A stretch of DNA of 21,410 nt. It comes from a virus. Below the pieces are notes generated by a model. That model did no database searches. It had not been told where the DNA came from and saw only the letters and a program-made list of their open reading frames with translations. Below are positions 1,323 to 6,736 of the stretch, in pieces. Where the stretch lies: the IMG/VR virus record IMGVR_UViG_3300027553_000007, positions 1-21,410 of that record; one strand, 5' to 3'. Every line of letters starts with the position of its first letter. Position 1 is the stretch's first letter. The translations under genes were made by a program, and so were the position numbers.

Positions 1323-1793
1323 TTACTTGTTTAAAACTTCTGCGCCATATAGCGCAATGAGTGCCGCTTCAGCGCGACCATCATCTTTCTTCCTGACAAA
1401 CTTCTCAGCATAATCAGGAAATCTCTGCATTGCCAATTGGCGGCTGGTATCTTTGTCAGATGTCAGGCCAAAGTGTTTCTTCCATTTCTGAGGCGTGACT
1501 AAATGCATTGGCGTTTTGTTAGCCGCCACACATGCAATCAATGCGCCATATCCCATACCAAATCTAAATGTGGCAACCGACGATTGGTTTGGCCTTGATG
1601 CCACCTGTTCAACTACAGCCATACGATCTTTAGCCTCTGGCTCTAACAAATGTAATAACGAATGAATATCAATTTCGTTTTTACCCTTTGAGTTTAAGAT
1701 GACAGGCATATCGATGACATCCAGATCTTTAGTGCGCGTGCAGTAATGTGCAATCGCTCCAGAGAAACCACAATCTACACCGACAACAATCAT
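1323..1793 (-). CDS. RuvC-like Holliday junction resolvase
   Basis: A 156-residue protein with an RNase H-like start, MIVVGVDCGFSGAIA, where Asp7 is the first metal ligand. A second acidic residue sits in VVEQV (Glu62), followed by a glycine-rich FGMGYGALIA helix and TPQKWKKHFGL. The C-terminal motif KKDDGRAEAALIALYG carries Asp137/Asp138 and Glu142. This order (D, E, D/E with a final ADALLIA-like helix) is typical of RuvC-type resolvases in phages and bacteria, which cut four-way junctions before packaging. Its ATG overlaps the stop of the upstream ribbon-helix-helix gene (ATGA), so the two are probably translationally coupled. The gene ends 15 nt before the exonuclease start. Confidence 0.85.
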   Translation of the reverse strand: MIVVGVDCGFSGAIAHYCTRTKDLDVIDMPVILNSKGKNEIDIHSLLHLLEPEAKDRMAVVEQVASRPNQSSVATFRFGMGYGALIACVAANKTPMHLVTPQKWKKHFGLTSDKDTSRQLAMQRFPDYAEKFVRKKDDGRAEAALIALYGAEVLNK

Positions 1794-1957
1794 TCATCTT
1801 CCTCTGGCTTTGCAACTTCAACGCCAGCTTTGGACGCCGCCATATAAGATGCCATCCTAACAAACGCATTAAAGCTCAGAGCCGATTTGTTGGCGGCCTC
1901 AGCAACGGCTTCATATTGAGCCTCACTAAAATTAATTAATACTCTCTTATCAACCAT
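1790..1957 (-). CDS. Small ribbon-helix-helix (Arc/CopG-like) protein
   Basis: A 55-residue frame starting at ATG 1957 behind AAGGAG (1966-1970 region) and ending in an ATGA overlap with the resolvase gene. The sequence opens with a short beta strand (VDKRVLINFS, residues 2-11), then a helix (EAQYEAVAEAANKSAL), the turn SFNAF, and a second helix (VRMASYMAASKA), ending in an acidic tail (PEEDE). That is the ribbon-helix-helix layout of Arc, CopG and MetJ-type DNA-binding proteins and of some mobilisation accessory proteins. In a phage it could be a dimeric transcriptional regulator; the tandem AT-rich repeats at the nearby promoters are possible operators. The target is inference. A nuclease-accessory role for the downstream resolvase is an alternative. 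Confidence 0.65.
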   Translation of the reverse strand: MVDKRVLINFSEAQYEAVAEAANKSALSFNAFVRMASYMAASKAGVEVAKPEEDE

Positions 1958-2016: not shown

Positions 2017-2754
2017 TTAAGCCGCTATTGCCTGCGCCTTATAATCCTTAATCGCCTGCAATGTGTCAACAACCTCAGACCATGAGTATGCAAAGTGAGT
2101 TTCAATAACCCCAAGATCAACGTAATCCCCACAGCCCTCAGCGTAGCCACCCAGCCAATATCTAGGCTCATCATCGTAGTAGTAATGTTCCATCTCGATC
2201 TCTATGCCCAGCTCCTTAGCCAATCGCCTAGCCTTACTTGCAGTTGCCCCAGCGTTTCGGTTTTTTGGCTTCTTAGCCACATGAGGTATCACCATGCCAT
2301 CTGGCGCAGTTAACTCATAAACCTCAGAAACTCTAGCGCGTCTCTTAACTCGCTTGTCTTTAATGCTCACGATTTCGCAAGTCAAACCACATACATATCT
2401 GCGACCTTGAACCAGTTGCCAGTGATGCCCAGCGACAACCAAAAATACACGCTCTGCATTGCGATACTTCACAGTGCCTCTTAACCAGCCAGCAAGTGTA
2501 ACGCCATCGGTGCGATTTAAACGCATACCATATGACTTCCGCGCAAAGCGGACGCCACACTCAGCAAATGCATCTCTGATTTGGCGAGTGCTAGTGCCTT
2601 TGACACTTCTCACACCACTGAGGTGACGAACAAGTCTCGCCGCCTCACCTGTTGTCATACCAGTGATTGCACTGACAACTGCCGCGCCACAGTAGCGGTT
2701 TCGATCCGCCTTTGTAGTGCCGTGATTAACTGGTTTGATTTTTAGCTTAGTCAT
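2017..2754 (-). CDS. C39/papain-like cysteine peptidase-fold protein
   Basis: A 245-residue protein; I place the start at ATG 2754 because GAGGAG lies just upstream, rather than at the in-frame ATG ten codons earlier, which would overlap that site. The N-terminal half reads NRYCGAAVVSAITGMTTGEAARLVR (Cys22), then a variable segment, then VFLVVAGHHWQLVQGRRYVCGL (His110/His111). This is the Cys...His arrangement of C39-like/papain-fold domains common in phages. In relatives I recall, an Asp follows the second strand; here the equivalent segment is YVCGL, so the third catalytic residue may be missing and activity is uncertain. Residues 160-245 are an extra region, basic then acidic and aromatic (EHYYYDDEPRYW). 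It is the first gene of the leftward unit, directly behind a strong promoter. Target unknown. Confidence 0.5.
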   Translation of the reverse strand: MTKLKIKPVNHGTTKADRNRYCGAAVVSAITGMTTGEAARLVRHLSGVRSVKGTSTRQIRDAFAECGVRFARKSYGMRLNRTDGVTLAGWLRGTVKYRNAERVFLVVAGHHWQLVQGRRYVCGLTCEIVSIKDKRVKRRARVSEVYELTAPDGMVIPHVAKKPKNRNAGATASKARRLAKELGIEIEMEHYYYDDEPRYWLGGYAEGCGDYVDLGVIETHFAYSWSEVVDTLQAIKDYKAQAIAA

Positions 2755-2768
2755 AATAAAGTCTCCTC

Positions 2769-2814
2769 GTTTGTGTTTATTCACTCAATATAACAGCTAT
2801 TCAGATGGCGTCAA
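2769..2814 (-). promoter_or_regulatory. Leftward sigma70-type promoter and leader (left arm of inverted repeat)
   Basis: On the minus strand the -35 box TTGACG (2809-2814) and -10 box TATATT (2787-2792) are separated by 16 bp. The arm continues GAGTGAATAAACACAAAC before the GAGGAG ribosome site of the peptidase-like gene. This arm matches the rightward arm (2849-2894) at 42 of 46 positions, so the two promoters are diverging duplicates. It should drive the whole leftward recombination set. Confidence 0.75.
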
Positions 2815-2820
2815 CAACAT

Positions 2821-2894
2821 AATGATATATAAAAGATATATTTTCCGCTTGACCGCATCTGAATAACTGCTATATTGAGTGAATAAACACAAAC
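2821..2894 (+). promoter_or_regulatory. Rightward promoter copy 1 with AT-rich upstream box
   Basis: An AT-rich 28-bp block (2821-2848, containing AATGATATAT and AGATATATTTT) abuts -35 TTGACC (2849-2854). A 16-bp spacer then precedes -10 TATATT (2871-2876), followed by a leader and GGAGA (2901-2905) before ATG 2913. The block occupies the UP-element position for this promoter. Because it lies between the two -35 boxes, it sits only 6 bp from the -35 of the leftward promoter as well. Two similar other copies at 3792 and 4490 make function very likely. Confidence 0.8.
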
Positions 2895-2912
2895 ATTAAC
2901 GGAGAATACAAA

Positions 2913-3323
2913 ATGAAAATCACAGTACAACATGCAAATCGTAACCGCGAAACTGGCAATATTGAAGAATTTACATCAGTTGCAGAAGTGCAAATCCCAG
3001 TAGAAATATCTGCATATGAAACAACTAATGATGCTCTTGAGTATGCATATCGTTGGACAAATAACATTGAGGGATCTTGGTCTAACGAGTTTTCTATAAT
3101 TACTATTGCAGATGGTAGCTCTATTATAAATGGTGATTTCAATAAAGATGTTACTGCATTAGAGCGTAGGGAAGATGGATTAGGTCTGCGATCTACAATG
3201 GCGTTTGATAGGTTTATTGTTGATGCACAAAGGCACGATGGCGAAATACTTCCAGAGCGCAGAAGAGTTTTTGAATGTGCATTTGTTGGCTTCAAAGAAT
3301 TACAAGTTGAGGAGACAGTATAA
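2913..3323 (+). CDS. Conserved phage protein of unknown function (first early gene)
   Basis: A 136-residue acidic protein behind GGAGA with 7-8 nt spacing. It has no signal peptide or membrane segment. The segment DALEYAYRWTNNIEGSWS and the later GLRSTMAFDRFIV resemble a widespread family of short phage proteins (pattern: leyA-R-T-N-GSWS ... RSTSVGDv ... V-GF), but I know no function for it. The C-terminal strand-like FECAFVGFKELQVEE ends the domain. It is the first gene behind rightward promoter copy 1, and its stop overlaps the next ATG (TAATG), so it starts a coupled three-gene set. Early host-takeover roles are common for genes in this position, but nothing in the sequence shows one. Confidence 0.75.
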   Translation: MKITVQHANRNRETGNIEEFTSVAEVQIPVEISAYETTNDALEYAYRWTNNIEGSWSNEFSIITIADGSSIINGDFNKDVTALERREDGLGLRSTMAFDRFIVDAQRHDGEILPERRRVFECAFVGFKELQVEETV

Positions 3324-3580
3324 TGGAAAATTTTGTAAAAGATTGGAAAGATCCAAAGTCTAATCGTAACACTGGCAGAAAGTGGAGATTGAGTGACGAG
3401 CTTGAGCAGGCTGGTTACTTTATCAGCCGCGATTATCCGCATGGATATATTATGCATAGGCATTCTCGAACAAGAGAAATTCATTGGAATACTACATTAA
3501 AAAATATGGATCAGTGGATCACATGGAAGAAAGATACACTGTTTGACCATGAAGACATTAATAATTGGGAGATTAAATAA
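3323..3580 (+). CDS. Small hypothetical early protein
   Basis: An 85-residue protein rich in Trp, His, Asp and Lys, beginning MENFVKDWKDPKSNRNTGRK. A central GYFISRDYPHGYIMHRHSRTREIHW segment looks like a beta-hairpin with many aromatic and basic residues, and could contact nucleic acid. There is no recognisable family motif, membrane span or cysteine pair. It starts within the stop of the preceding gene and its own stop overlaps the next ATG (both TAATG), so translation of the three genes is probably coupled. Confidence 0.7.
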   Translation: MENFVKDWKDPKSNRNTGRKWRLSDELEQAGYFISRDYPHGYIMHRHSRTREIHWNTTLKNMDQWITWKKDTLFDHEDINNWEIK

Positions 3581-3774
3581 TGAATACAACTTGGGAAAAT
3601 GCTTACAATGAAGCAATCGATTTGGCTGTTGAGTTTCCAGAAATTGAGCTTACATCAGCCCTAAAACAATTTGCGTTTAATCATGGCATCAAGGAAGGCG
3701 ATGACATGGCTAAATTTGTAAAATGGGGCTGGGAAAAAATGTACCAGCAATGGGCAGATTACGAGCGTAAATAA
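3580..3774 (+). CDS. Small acidic helical early protein
   Basis: A 64-residue protein that reads as mostly helical and acidic: a first helix around ENAYNEAIDLAVEFP, a second around LTSALKQFAFNHGI, and a Trp-rich C-terminal helix (AKFVKWGWEKMYQQWADYERK). I do not recognise the family. It is the last of the three coupled genes driven by rightward promoter copy 1, and promoter copy 2 begins 18 nt after its stop. Its size, charge and position fit a phage protein that binds a host partner, but that is speculation. Confidence 0.7.
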   Translation: MNTTWENAYNEAIDLAVEFPEIELTSALKQFAFNHGIKEGDDMAKFVKWGWEKMYQQWADYERK

Positions 3775-3791
3775 CTGCTAGGGTTAGGCAC

Positions 3792-3847
3792 AATGATATA
3801 TAAATGATATATTTAGTGCTTGACCCTATCTAAATAACTGCTATTCT
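3792..3847 (+). promoter_or_regulatory. Rightward promoter copy 2 with AT-rich upstream box
   Basis: The 28-bp AT-rich block (3792-3819) contains two direct copies of AATGATATAT, abuts -35 TTGACC (3820-3825), and is followed at 16 bp by -10 TATTCT (3842-3847). The stretch 3786-3826 is identical over 41 bp to 4484-4524 at promoter copy 3. It sits in the gap between two early genes and drives the gene at 3882. Confidence 0.8.
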
Positions 3848-3881
3848 ACTTAAATAAACATAAACACAAATGGAGATTAAC

Positions 3882-4469
3882 ATGGGCTGGCACGAAAACG
3901 ATTATCACGATAAATGGGATAACCCAAGATATGTAGCCGCAGTTGAGGCAAGCATAAAAGCCAATGCTAGAAAAAGCAGGGCTAAAAAGTTTTACGCCAA
4001 TGATGAGCGAGCGCAGGAAATTACAGAATTTCTAGCTGGCTCTAGCTACGATAATGCAGATAGCTTTCTTGGCAAAATGGAAACAGCATTAAATGACTAT
4101 GGGTCTTTAACTGAAGGCCAGCGCAATGCTGTTGTAAAAATTATTGACAAACGTGCGGCTCTGGTTGCCGAGCGCCAAGCGGCTGACGCTGACTGTAAGT
4201 GGGTGGGTGTTGTTGGTGAACGTCAGGCGTTCAGCCTAACAGTACAGCACGTTGTGGCTCTGGAAGGATATTACGGCACGACATACATTAACATATGCCG
4301 CGATGAGAATAATGACATCGTTGTTTATAAAGGATCTAATGGCTGGTCAAAAAAAGGCACTGATGTAACTTGCATGGCAAAAATTAAAGAGCATGGCGAG
4401 CGCGATGGTGTTAAGCAAACTATTATCCAGCGCCCTACAAAAGTAAAAATCAATGGTGAGGATTGGTAA
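3882..4469 (+). CDS. Conserved phage protein with probable OB-like C-terminal half
   Basis: A 195-residue protein. I start it at ATG 3882, with GGAG at 3872-3875, rather than at the in-frame ATG 3870, which would consume that site. The N-terminal half is helical and includes FLGKMETALNDYGSLTEGQRNAVVKII. The second half (from about WVGVVGERQAFSLTVQHVVALEGYYGTTYINICRDENNDIVVYKGS) is a run of beta strands ending in KEHGERDGVKQTIIQRPTKVKI, which reads like an OB-fold or similar barrel. I recall closely patterned phage proteins of unknown function, with the LTEGQ, EGYYGTTYI and GVKQTI...RPK signatures. A nucleic acid-binding role is plausible but not shown. It stands alone behind promoter copy 2. 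Confidence 0.75.
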   Translation: MGWHENDYHDKWDNPRYVAAVEASIKANARKSRAKKFYANDERAQEITEFLAGSSYDNADSFLGKMETALNDYGSLTEGQRNAVVKIIDKRAALVAERQAADADCKWVGVVGERQAFSLTVQHVVALEGYYGTTYINICRDENNDIVVYKGSNGWSKKGTDVTCMAKIKEHGERDGVKQTIIQRPTKVKINGEDW

Positions 4470-4489
4470 TACTTACTCAGGTCAGGCAC

Positions 4490-4545
4490 AATGATATATA
4501 AATGATATATTTAGTGCTTGACCCAATCTGATAATCTGTTAGATT
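4490..4545 (+). promoter_or_regulatory. Rightward promoter copy 3 with AT-rich upstream box
   Basis: The AT-rich block at 4490-4517 is identical to copy 2 and abuts -35 TTGACC (4518-4523); a 16-bp spacer precedes -10 TAGATT (4540-4545). Its leader repeats the 25 bp around the ribosome site of promoter copy 1 (4559-4583 equals 2891-2915), so both upstream and downstream parts are duplicated among the cassettes. It should drive the genes from 4581 onward. Confidence 0.8.
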
Positions 4546-4580: not shown

Positions 4581-4871
4581 ATGACACTTACTGAAAATCA
4601 AAGCGCCGCAATGACTGCCTTAATCAAAAATTGCTTGGATGTTATGGGCGGCACTTGCGTTGCAGATTTAGTTGACGATCCTTGGGTATATGCGAGAGCT
4701 GAAGATCTTGTAAATGCTGGTTGGACGCAGAAGCAAGCCGAGGGTACTTTTGGATCATTAGTTGCTGGCGGTTATATTTATCACGATGTTGGTGGTAACT
4801 ACACTAATGATTTATATGCCCTTGATGGTTACGATGTAGATTTTAGCAATCTACTTCAGTTCCACAAATAG
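4581..4871 (+). CDS. Small early protein, possibly winged-helix
   Basis: A 96-residue protein starting at ATG 4581 behind GGAGA. An upstream in-frame extension to 4518 would start inside the promoter -35 box and is rejected. Residues 1-25 (TENQSAAMTALIKNCLDVMGG) form a helix, then come VADLVDDPWVYARAEDLVNAGWTQKQAEGTFGSLVAGGYI and a short wing-like tail (YHDVGGNYTNDLYALDGYDV). The helix, GWTQKQAEGTFGSLVAGG and beta order resembles a winged helix-turn-helix, which could make this a DNA-binding early regulator; I am not certain. First gene behind promoter copy 3. Confidence 0.7.
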   Translation: MTLTENQSAAMTALIKNCLDVMGGTCVADLVDDPWVYARAEDLVNAGWTQKQAEGTFGSLVAGGYIYHDVGGNYTNDLYALDGYDVDFSNLLQFHK

Positions 4872-5624: not shown

Positions 5625-6302
5625 ATGCAAAGATTAATTATTAAATCAATTCATGAGCATGGCTTTGGCTTTGCTTTCACTCACAAAGAACACGACCAAG
5701 TGTACCTTCCACGAAAACTTTTATTTGAGGCTGGCATCACATCGTTGAAGCCAGCCGACGAAATAATAGGTGAAGTTATACCTAATTATATAGATAAATT
5801 GGATGGTGGCTGTAAATACATTTGCACTGAAATAGGTTATGCTCACAGATTTAGCGACCACATTGAGCCAATACCAAGGGGTTATGCAAGTGAAATTGAA
5901 TACATAAAACAGTTTTTTATTCTTCATGATGAAATTAAAAAATCAGATAAAAATCAGTTGAGAAATAATTTATACAATAGCTTTGAAAGGATTGATCCAT
6001 CTTTGCATAGGGCATTATTTGCTGAAATTGATAGACCTTCCTTATCGGTGCGTACCTATAATCTAATAAGAAATGAATTAGATCATATGAAAATTTATAA
6101 TTACGATTTATTAAGTTACACTCCAGCAGAATTATTACGCATCCCAAATCTTGGCAGAACGGCATTATATGAAGTGCAAAACCATTTAAATAAGTTTGGC
6201 TTAAAACTTAACACACCATTAGACCAAATTAAAGAAAAAGTAATGTCATCATTCATTGAGCATGTCTCTGACAATCTAACACATATATGGAAGGATCAAT
6301 AA
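5625..6302 (+). CDS. Fusion of cold-shock-like region with an RNA polymerase alpha-CTD-like domain
   Basis: A 225-residue protein. Residues 1-70 look like a cold-shock/OB barrel: HGFGFAFTHKEHDQVYLPRKLL resembles the KGFGFI...VFVHF core of CspA-type proteins, with later strands IIGEVIP and KYICTEI. Residues 88-135 are helical. Residues 138-196 follow the E. coli RpoA C-terminal domain along its length: LSVRTYNLIRNE aligns with LTVRSANCLKAE, and DLLSYTPAELLRIPNLGRTALYEV aligns with [24 protein letters not shown]. Arg143, Asn146 and Gly177 match Arg265, Asn268 and Gly296, the main UP-element contacts; Arg149 and Glu151 match Lys271 and Glu273. Lys298 and Ser299 equivalents are Thr179 and Ala180. 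No polymerase-assembly (alpha-NTD) region exists, so it probably acts in trans on DNA or transcription factors. It is in the early operon whose promoters carry AT-rich upstream boxes. Confidence 0.75.
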   Translation: MQRLIIKSIHEHGFGFAFTHKEHDQVYLPRKLLFEAGITSLKPADEIIGEVIPNYIDKLDGGCKYICTEIGYAHRFSDHIEPIPRGYASEIEYIKQFFILHDEIKKSDKNQLRNNLYNSFERIDPSLHRALFAEIDRPSLSVRTYNLIRNELDHMKIYNYDLLSYTPAELLRIPNLGRTALYEVQNHLNKFGLKLNTPLDQIKEKVMSSFIEHVSDNLTHIWKDQ

Positions 6303-6303
6303 T

Positions 6304-6528
6304 ATGACATTTTATACAACGCTCGTTCTCACATATGTCATTGGCGGCGTGGAGCTACAGGACACCACGCTCTATCGCAGTGCGCGTGAGTGTGGCGACG
6401 CATTGCCAGCAGTCTACAAACCATATGAGAAAATGGACAGCATGGCTCAGTGCATCGAAACTAGCCACGTCAGCTCATCATTTATTGTACCAAAGCTCAG
6501 GCCGAAAGGATTATCCAATGGCAAGTAA
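6304..6528 (+). CDS. Small conserved phage protein with two cysteines
   Basis: A 74-residue protein starting one base after the preceding stop, with AAGGA about ten bases upstream of the ATG. The sequence, MTFYTTLVLTYVIGGVELQD followed by TTLYRSARECGDALPAVY and later MAQCIET, has an N-terminal beta or weakly hydrophobic segment, a conserved-looking LYRSARECGDALPA motif and a second cysteine. I have seen this pattern in other marine-type phage genomes as a hypothetical protein. The two cysteines could form a disulfide if the N-terminal segment directs export, but it is a poor signal peptide. The last 11 bases overlap the next gene. Confidence 0.65.
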   Translation: MTFYTTLVLTYVIGGVELQDTTLYRSARECGDALPAVYKPYEKMDSMAQCIETSHVSSSFIVPKLRPKGLSNGK

Positions 6529-6736
6529 ATATTATCCATGCCCAGAATGTAATGGAGCAGGCGAAACGCTATTCGAGAAAGATTATAATATCTTCCATGA
6601 AACTTACCTGTATGAGAAAGCCGATTGCACAAATTGCGCTGGCACTGGCTTGATACTGCCAGAGATGCCAAAAGCTAGAACCCGTGTACCAGATTTGGAT
6701 GCCAACGGAAAATTTAAAGGACATGATGATGAATAA
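6518..6736 (+). CDS. DnaJ-type cysteine-rich zinc-binding protein
   Basis: A 72-residue protein starting at ATG 6518, overlapping the end of the preceding gene by 11 bases. It carries CPECNGAG (Cys8, Cys11) and CTNCAGTG (Cys37, Cys40), the CxxCxGxG repeats of the DnaJ central zinc domain, here as a single pair that would bind one zinc ion. No J-domain or substrate-binding domain is present. Stand-alone proteins of this kind are common in phages and may act as zinc-ribbon adaptors or in folding. The tail (ARTRVPDLDANGKFKGHDDE) is charged and probably flexible. A longer in-frame upstream extension overlaps the previous gene entirely and is not supported. Confidence 0.75.
   Translation: MASKYYPCPECNGAGETLFEKDYNIFHETYLYEKADCTNCAGTGLILPEMPKARTRVPDLDANGKFKGHDDE

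Follow-up and report, generated by a model that had tools for sequence, protein, structure and literature searches.

The window, as we call the whole stretch analysed, is a 21.4-kb virus record (21,410 nucleotides) with podovirus-type head genes, including a portal (phrog_1216) and a capsid protein (phrog_1328). The portal is closest to that of Octadecabacter Antarctic DB virus 2, at 46%, and a megablast of the window against phage records returned no match. The leftward genes run in the order g4, g3, Holliday-junction resolvase and exonuclease VIII-like protein, while the rightward genes are small accessory genes. The first gene of the leftward operon, g4 (2017-2754, minus strand, 245 aa), has no assigned function and no match in Pfam or PHROG; relatives of g4 are found in unrelated alphaproteobacterial phages, among them Roseobacter CRP-901 (55%), Erythrobacter XM05 and the giant Brevundimonas phages. 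It is followed by g3 (1790-1957, minus strand), which encodes a ribbon-helix-helix-like protein of 55 aa. On the plus strand, three copies of an AT-rich box precede the accessory genes: g5-g6-g7 (2913-3774) lie behind copy 1, g8 (3882-4469, phrog_27218) behind copy 2 and g9 (4581-4871) behind copy 3. Further along the same strand, g12 (5625-6302, 225 aa) combines a cold-shock-like N domain with a C domain resembling the C-terminal domain of the RNA polymerase alpha subunit (alpha-CTD). An alternative-frame ORF (6335-6736, plus strand) overlaps g13 and has a zinc-binding motif that resembles, at scores under the Pfam cutoffs, the DnaJ central domain or Anti-TRAP.

The initial annotation described 28-bp boxes directly adjoining TTGACC, and all the coordinates were correct (2821-2848, 3792-3819 and 4490-4517). 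The spacer from TTGACC to the -10 element is 16 bp at each, as had been reported, with -10 sequences TATATT, TATTCT and TAGATT at copies 1, 2 and 3, and all three rightward promoters also have an extended -10 (TGn). A scan of the record for the box found exactly these three copies. As claimed, there are two ATGATATAT-like units in each, at a distance of 11 bp. The cores, all on the plus strand, are ATGATATATAAAAGATATATTTT at 2822-2844 in copy 1, with units at 2822-2830 and 2833-2841, and ATGATATATAAATGATATATTTA at both 3793-3815 (copy 2) and 4491-4513 (copy 3). The promoter of copy 2 occupies 3820-3847 (TTGACC, 16 bp, TGc TATTCT) and that of copy 3 4518-4545 (TTGACC, 16 bp, TGt TAGATT), both on the plus strand. 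Copies 2 and 3 are identical over 41 bp, as noted (3786-3826 and 4484-4524); this exact repeat is maximal, and 30 dinucleotide-preserving shuffles of the window gave longest repeats of 13-16 bp. The labels 'early' and 'promoter' for these cassettes are predictions from the DNA sequence.

The box is not a full palindrome: its core is a direct repeat, and only the flanking arms are inverted. The left arm of copy 2, GGTTAGGCAC (3782-3791), is the inverted partner of GTGCTTGACC at 3816-3825 and includes a degenerate reverse -35; two related contigs (L009/L118) carry its perfect form, GGTCAAGCAC. The left arm of copy 3, GGTCAGGCAC (4480-4489), is likewise the inverted partner of GTGCTTGACC at 4514-4523.

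What had been overlooked is that copy 1 is the common centre of two back-to-back promoters. The region from 2769 to 2894 is a mirror image, with arms of 46 nt (2769-2814 and 2849-2894) that are 91% complementary and separated by 34 nt. The leftward promoter has a -35 TTGACG (2809-2814, minus strand), a 16-bp spacer and a -10 TATATT with TGn (2787-2792, minus strand), and precedes the g4-g3-g2-g1 operon. Its rightward partner has the -35 TTGACC (2849-2854, plus strand) and -10 TATATT with TGn (2871-2876, plus strand). Of the 34 bp separating the two -35 elements, 7 bp lie at either end and the two 9-bp units, 2 bp apart, in the middle; each -35 is thus 7 bp from the nearest unit and the double site is centred between the promoters. 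This divergent placement is kept in relatives, and we refer to copy 1 as the master copy.

Searching 2.9 million viral contigs with an IUPAC pattern for the box followed by TTGAC gave 39 stretches, every one with genes of the same phage group. Dropping the -35 requirement raised the number to 42, of which 39 were those found with TTGAC; the other three (L236-L238) have no homologues of window genes and were taken as chance matches. On this evidence core and promoter are inseparable. The related phage contigs hold 45 distinct box instances, and in all of them the two 9-bp units lie 11 bp apart, as paired sub-sites at a fixed helical spacing near promoters. The records are mostly metagenomic fragments, with 1-3 copies of the cassette per contig. 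One contig of 39,852 bp (G025, with L120/L121) was left out of the copy-number count; we rejected it as a near-complete genome with three boxes, since its two ends carry different alleles of the same early region and it is probably chimeric. A repeat search of the early regions of boxless relatives showed no equivalent repeated box.

Conservation was measured on 44 distinct instances, taken as 170-nt haplotypes that are phylogenetically linked and so not independent. Mean entropy per column was lowest in the -35 (0.03 bit) and the 20-bp core (0.10) and higher in the -10 (0.48), bearing out the claim that the box is kept more strictly than the -10. Still higher values were found for the 7-bp linker (0.75), the promoter spacer (0.80) and the left flank (0.89-1.34). 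Within this near-invariant core each unit has a fixed G. In lineages with a portal identity of about 81% (G052/G066 and L204/L205), the core retains 90-95% identity and the promoter spacer 31-44%. Such conservation gives good support to a protein-bound, two-site element in front of putative early promoters.

The sequences establish that the element exists, that it is strictly conserved and coupled to a promoter, that it is divergently placed, that it has spread over different genes and that an inversion is tolerated. To explain these we propose that the box is a two-site operator within a portable sigma-70 early-promoter cassette, read by a phage protein that is most likely g3 and forming a self-limiting early switch; we would put the chances of this whole proposal at about even. 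Protein binding, the identity of the reader, the sign of control and its timing are the parts that we infer. A sequence-specific DNA-binding protein encoded by the phage would occupy the pair of head-to-tail ATGATATAT units, which are spaced by one helical turn and lie at about -61 to -42, immediately before the -35. At the master copy a single occupancy event would govern the leftward recombination and regulator operon and the rightward accessory operon jointly, and extra copies would bring further accessory genes into the same regulon. As g3 would be made from the leftward operon whose promoter carries the box, the switch could limit itself, probably by shut-off. We guess at shut-off because small repressors are commonly encoded in the operon that they control; since the core is placed upstream of the -35 and does not overlap it, an activator would be as compatible as a repressor.

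The initial annotation had left open a choice between a two-site UP element and a two-site operator. The operator half of that suggestion is now favoured and the UP half less so. If the box were a UP element, host alpha-CTDs would bind its AT-rich DNA and give strong, constitutive early promoters that need no phage regulator. The box is AT-rich, abuts a strong -35 with an extended -10 beyond it and occupies the position expected of a UP element (about -38 to -59). UP elements are employed by T4 early promoters (PMC2988021), and AT-rich UP elements raise promoter activity in Rhodobacter sphaeroides (PMC11497788), so help from host alpha-CTD could coexist with an operator. However, the boxes match only 5-6 of 14 positions of the E. 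coli UP consensus in the canonical register and 7-8 of 14 at the best shift, while shuffled sequences average 7.7-8.1 and rrnB P1 scores 11 of 14. A fit no better than that of shuffled sequence makes the UP consensus insufficient as an account of the box, although this is not fatal to the idea, as the alphaproteobacterial optimum may differ from that of E. coli. The strict bases weigh against it as well: swaps between A and T should be tolerated, and conserved guanines in both units would not be expected if the element were recognised as generic AT DNA with a narrow groove, and point instead to base-specific reading. The box thus resembles the UP elements of bacterial and T4 early promoters (PMC2988021) in being AT-rich and lying at about -60 to -38 of strong sigma-70 promoters, but differs in lacking a consensus match, in the strictness of its bases and in being common to two promoters. 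We regard a UP element as a rather unlikely explanation.

The operator proposal needs a reader, and g3 is our preferred candidate. It has a weak NikA-like Pfam match, and Foldseek returned mostly ribbon-helix-helix proteins (FitA, NikA, Arc, CopG and AmrZ) with probabilities up to 0.94 and E of about 1 for a tiny model; the strand is not formed in the monomer model. A tblastn search of g3 against phage records gave no match. All box phages with coverage of the locus have the gene, and it also occurs in boxless relatives. Among box phages the predicted DNA-contact strand, VDKRVLINFS, varies in 1 of 10 columns, against 22 of 51 overall, and only 1.6% of random 10-column sets of g3 were as invariable. 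Ribbon-helix-helix strands are conserved for dimerisation as well. The g3 of boxless relatives differs from VDKRVLINFS, a difference that could be plain phylogeny. In AmrZ, which is also a ribbon-helix-helix protein, alternating strand residues touch bases and two dimers occupy two half sites (PMC3325190); if g3 behaves likewise, its residues R5, L7 and N9 would face the DNA. Just upstream of the g3 homologue, three other contigs (L152, L154 and L157) have a AGGATGTAACGTCCT palindrome and more ATCCTA/TAGGAT copies around a putative promoter, possibly an operator of different sequence upstream of diverged g3 proteins.

Other phage proteins, g12 or g15, could be the reader instead. In the case of g12, the fusion of alpha-CTD-like and cold-shock-like domains would compete with host alpha-CTD on the boxes or replace it. 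The C domain scores 28.3 bits against Pfam RNA_pol_A_CTD (cutoff 23.8), and the AlphaFold model (mean pLDDT 81) matched in Foldseek the Caulobacter alpha-CTD on AT-rich DNA (9zum, probability 1.00), as well as cold-shock proteins. All alleles have the same residue at the position that aligns with R265 of E. coli, and the gene belongs to the early cluster, on the downstream side of the boxes. However, its presence does not track the box: an alpha-CTD domain is found at 27 box loci and missing from 6, and among boxless relatives 10 have it and 3 do not. Alleles that are just 30-40% alike also accompany near-identical boxes. This inconsistent co-occurrence weakens the case for g12 as a dedicated reader, and we consider that role improbable. 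A related idea, that g12 is an alpha-CTD look-alike, detached from polymerase and fused to a cold-shock-like domain, which sits on AT boxes at the UP position of the phage's early promoters and blocks or replaces host alpha-CTD, a subunit mimicry that might extend to host promoters, seems to us very improbable.

We found no annotated counterpart of the g12 alpha-CTD-like protein in isolate phages, the matches being only to rpoA or rpoA-like genes. Elsewhere in the group the locus is varied. In five boxless relatives (L149, L150, L151, L155 and L156) the N domain of g12 is joined to a winged-helix-looking domain instead, in L118, L107 and L160 it stands alone, and L145/L085 have the alpha-CTD domain behind an N part of unrelated sequence. 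The g12 locus is one at which DNA-binding modules are being swapped.

A mosaic of small genes separates the core leftward genes from the core rightward genes, which begin at g12. The cassette precedes at least 15 different, unrelated gene families and its left neighbours vary too; across contigs one core is found with different promoter tails and ribosome-binding regions. In several relatives (L009/L118/L161 and their kin) the g8/g9 junction has its core in exactly the inverted orientation, set between the arms GGTCAAGCAC and GTGCTTGACC (GCAC/GTGC), with promoter and gene intact. If the inverted copy is functional, the core need not have a single orientation.

The changing neighbours on both sides, the swapping of promoter tails among boxes and the inversion of the core between its arms would also suit a recombination seam, a short stretch of homology between shuffled genes kept uniform by gene conversion and not by protein binding, like the PeSL cassettes of T4. 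What is conserved speaks against this: only the core and the -35 are, while homogenisation would carry the adjacent spacer and left flank along, and the single-copy lineages G052/G066 still keep the core. A seam is in our judgement quite unlikely. The promoter early stem-loop (PeSL) elements are described, in work cited in PMC4503421, as mobile cassettes of T4-type phages. The box is like a PeSL in being an early-promoter cassette repeated at the junctions of shuffled small genes and unlike one in having a binding-site-like core as its conserved part and no terminator-like stem-loop. Such a structure was missing at all three boxes in the window, and we do not count them as PeSL elements.

Bacterial genomes bear on whether the reader belongs to phage or host. 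Among about 85,000 species-representative bacterial and archaeal genomes there was a single box match, on a 3.4-kb contig in a Rhodobacteraceae bin. That contig itself carries homologues of g1, g2, g3 and g5 and is therefore phage-like; together with the isolate relatives it suggests that the marine box phages have Rhodobacteraceae as hosts. The core, with one mismatch allowed, was absent from the 297 other genomes of the family of this match, which argues against a host regulon site, and so against mimicry of a host operator, and for a phage reader. The same absence, together with the strict sequence and the fixed 11-bp register, makes it extremely unlikely that a host nucleoid protein or AT-DNA silencer such as a MucR-type protein reads the box, even though AT-rich DNA that contains TpA steps, in what is probably an alphaproteobacterial phage, would suit one.

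Returning to the operator proposal, a close parallel is immI of phage P22, where the ribbon-helix-helix repressors Arc and Mnt act at divergent promoters. Both systems have a small ribbon-helix-helix protein (a candidate here), an operator between divergent promoters and paired sub-sites about one turn apart. In contrast to immI, the units of the box are head-to-tail, lie upstream of the -35 and recur before accessory genes; the likeness is one of general design, and binding to the box is our supposition. The lambda OL/OR operators and the stoperators of mycobacteriophage L5 are repeated repressor sites, and the box is like them in that one short site recurs along a phage genome for what would be coordinated control. 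It differs in being coupled to a -35 at a fixed distance and, in the records examined, confined to the early region. No stoperator-type sites away from promoters were found in the box clade, where TTGAC follows every core at a fixed distance.

If the proposal is right, early gene control in widespread, mostly uncultured marine phages can be approached through one defined sequence, the box, and the membership of accessory genes in the early regulon can be predicted from it. Two proteins would also come into view, a candidate repressor and a phage protein that has an RNA-polymerase alpha-CTD-like domain. The natural inversion of the core and the 45 natural variants are ready-made test constructs.

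A sister phage group (L191-L197, L207-L217, L231 and L232) is boxless and has homologues of the alpha-CTD-like protein, g13, g15, g3, g2 and g1 arranged in a single direction. In another contig (L205, 1065-1200), direct repeats of 22-38 bp surround TGGACATGTCC...CGGACA.
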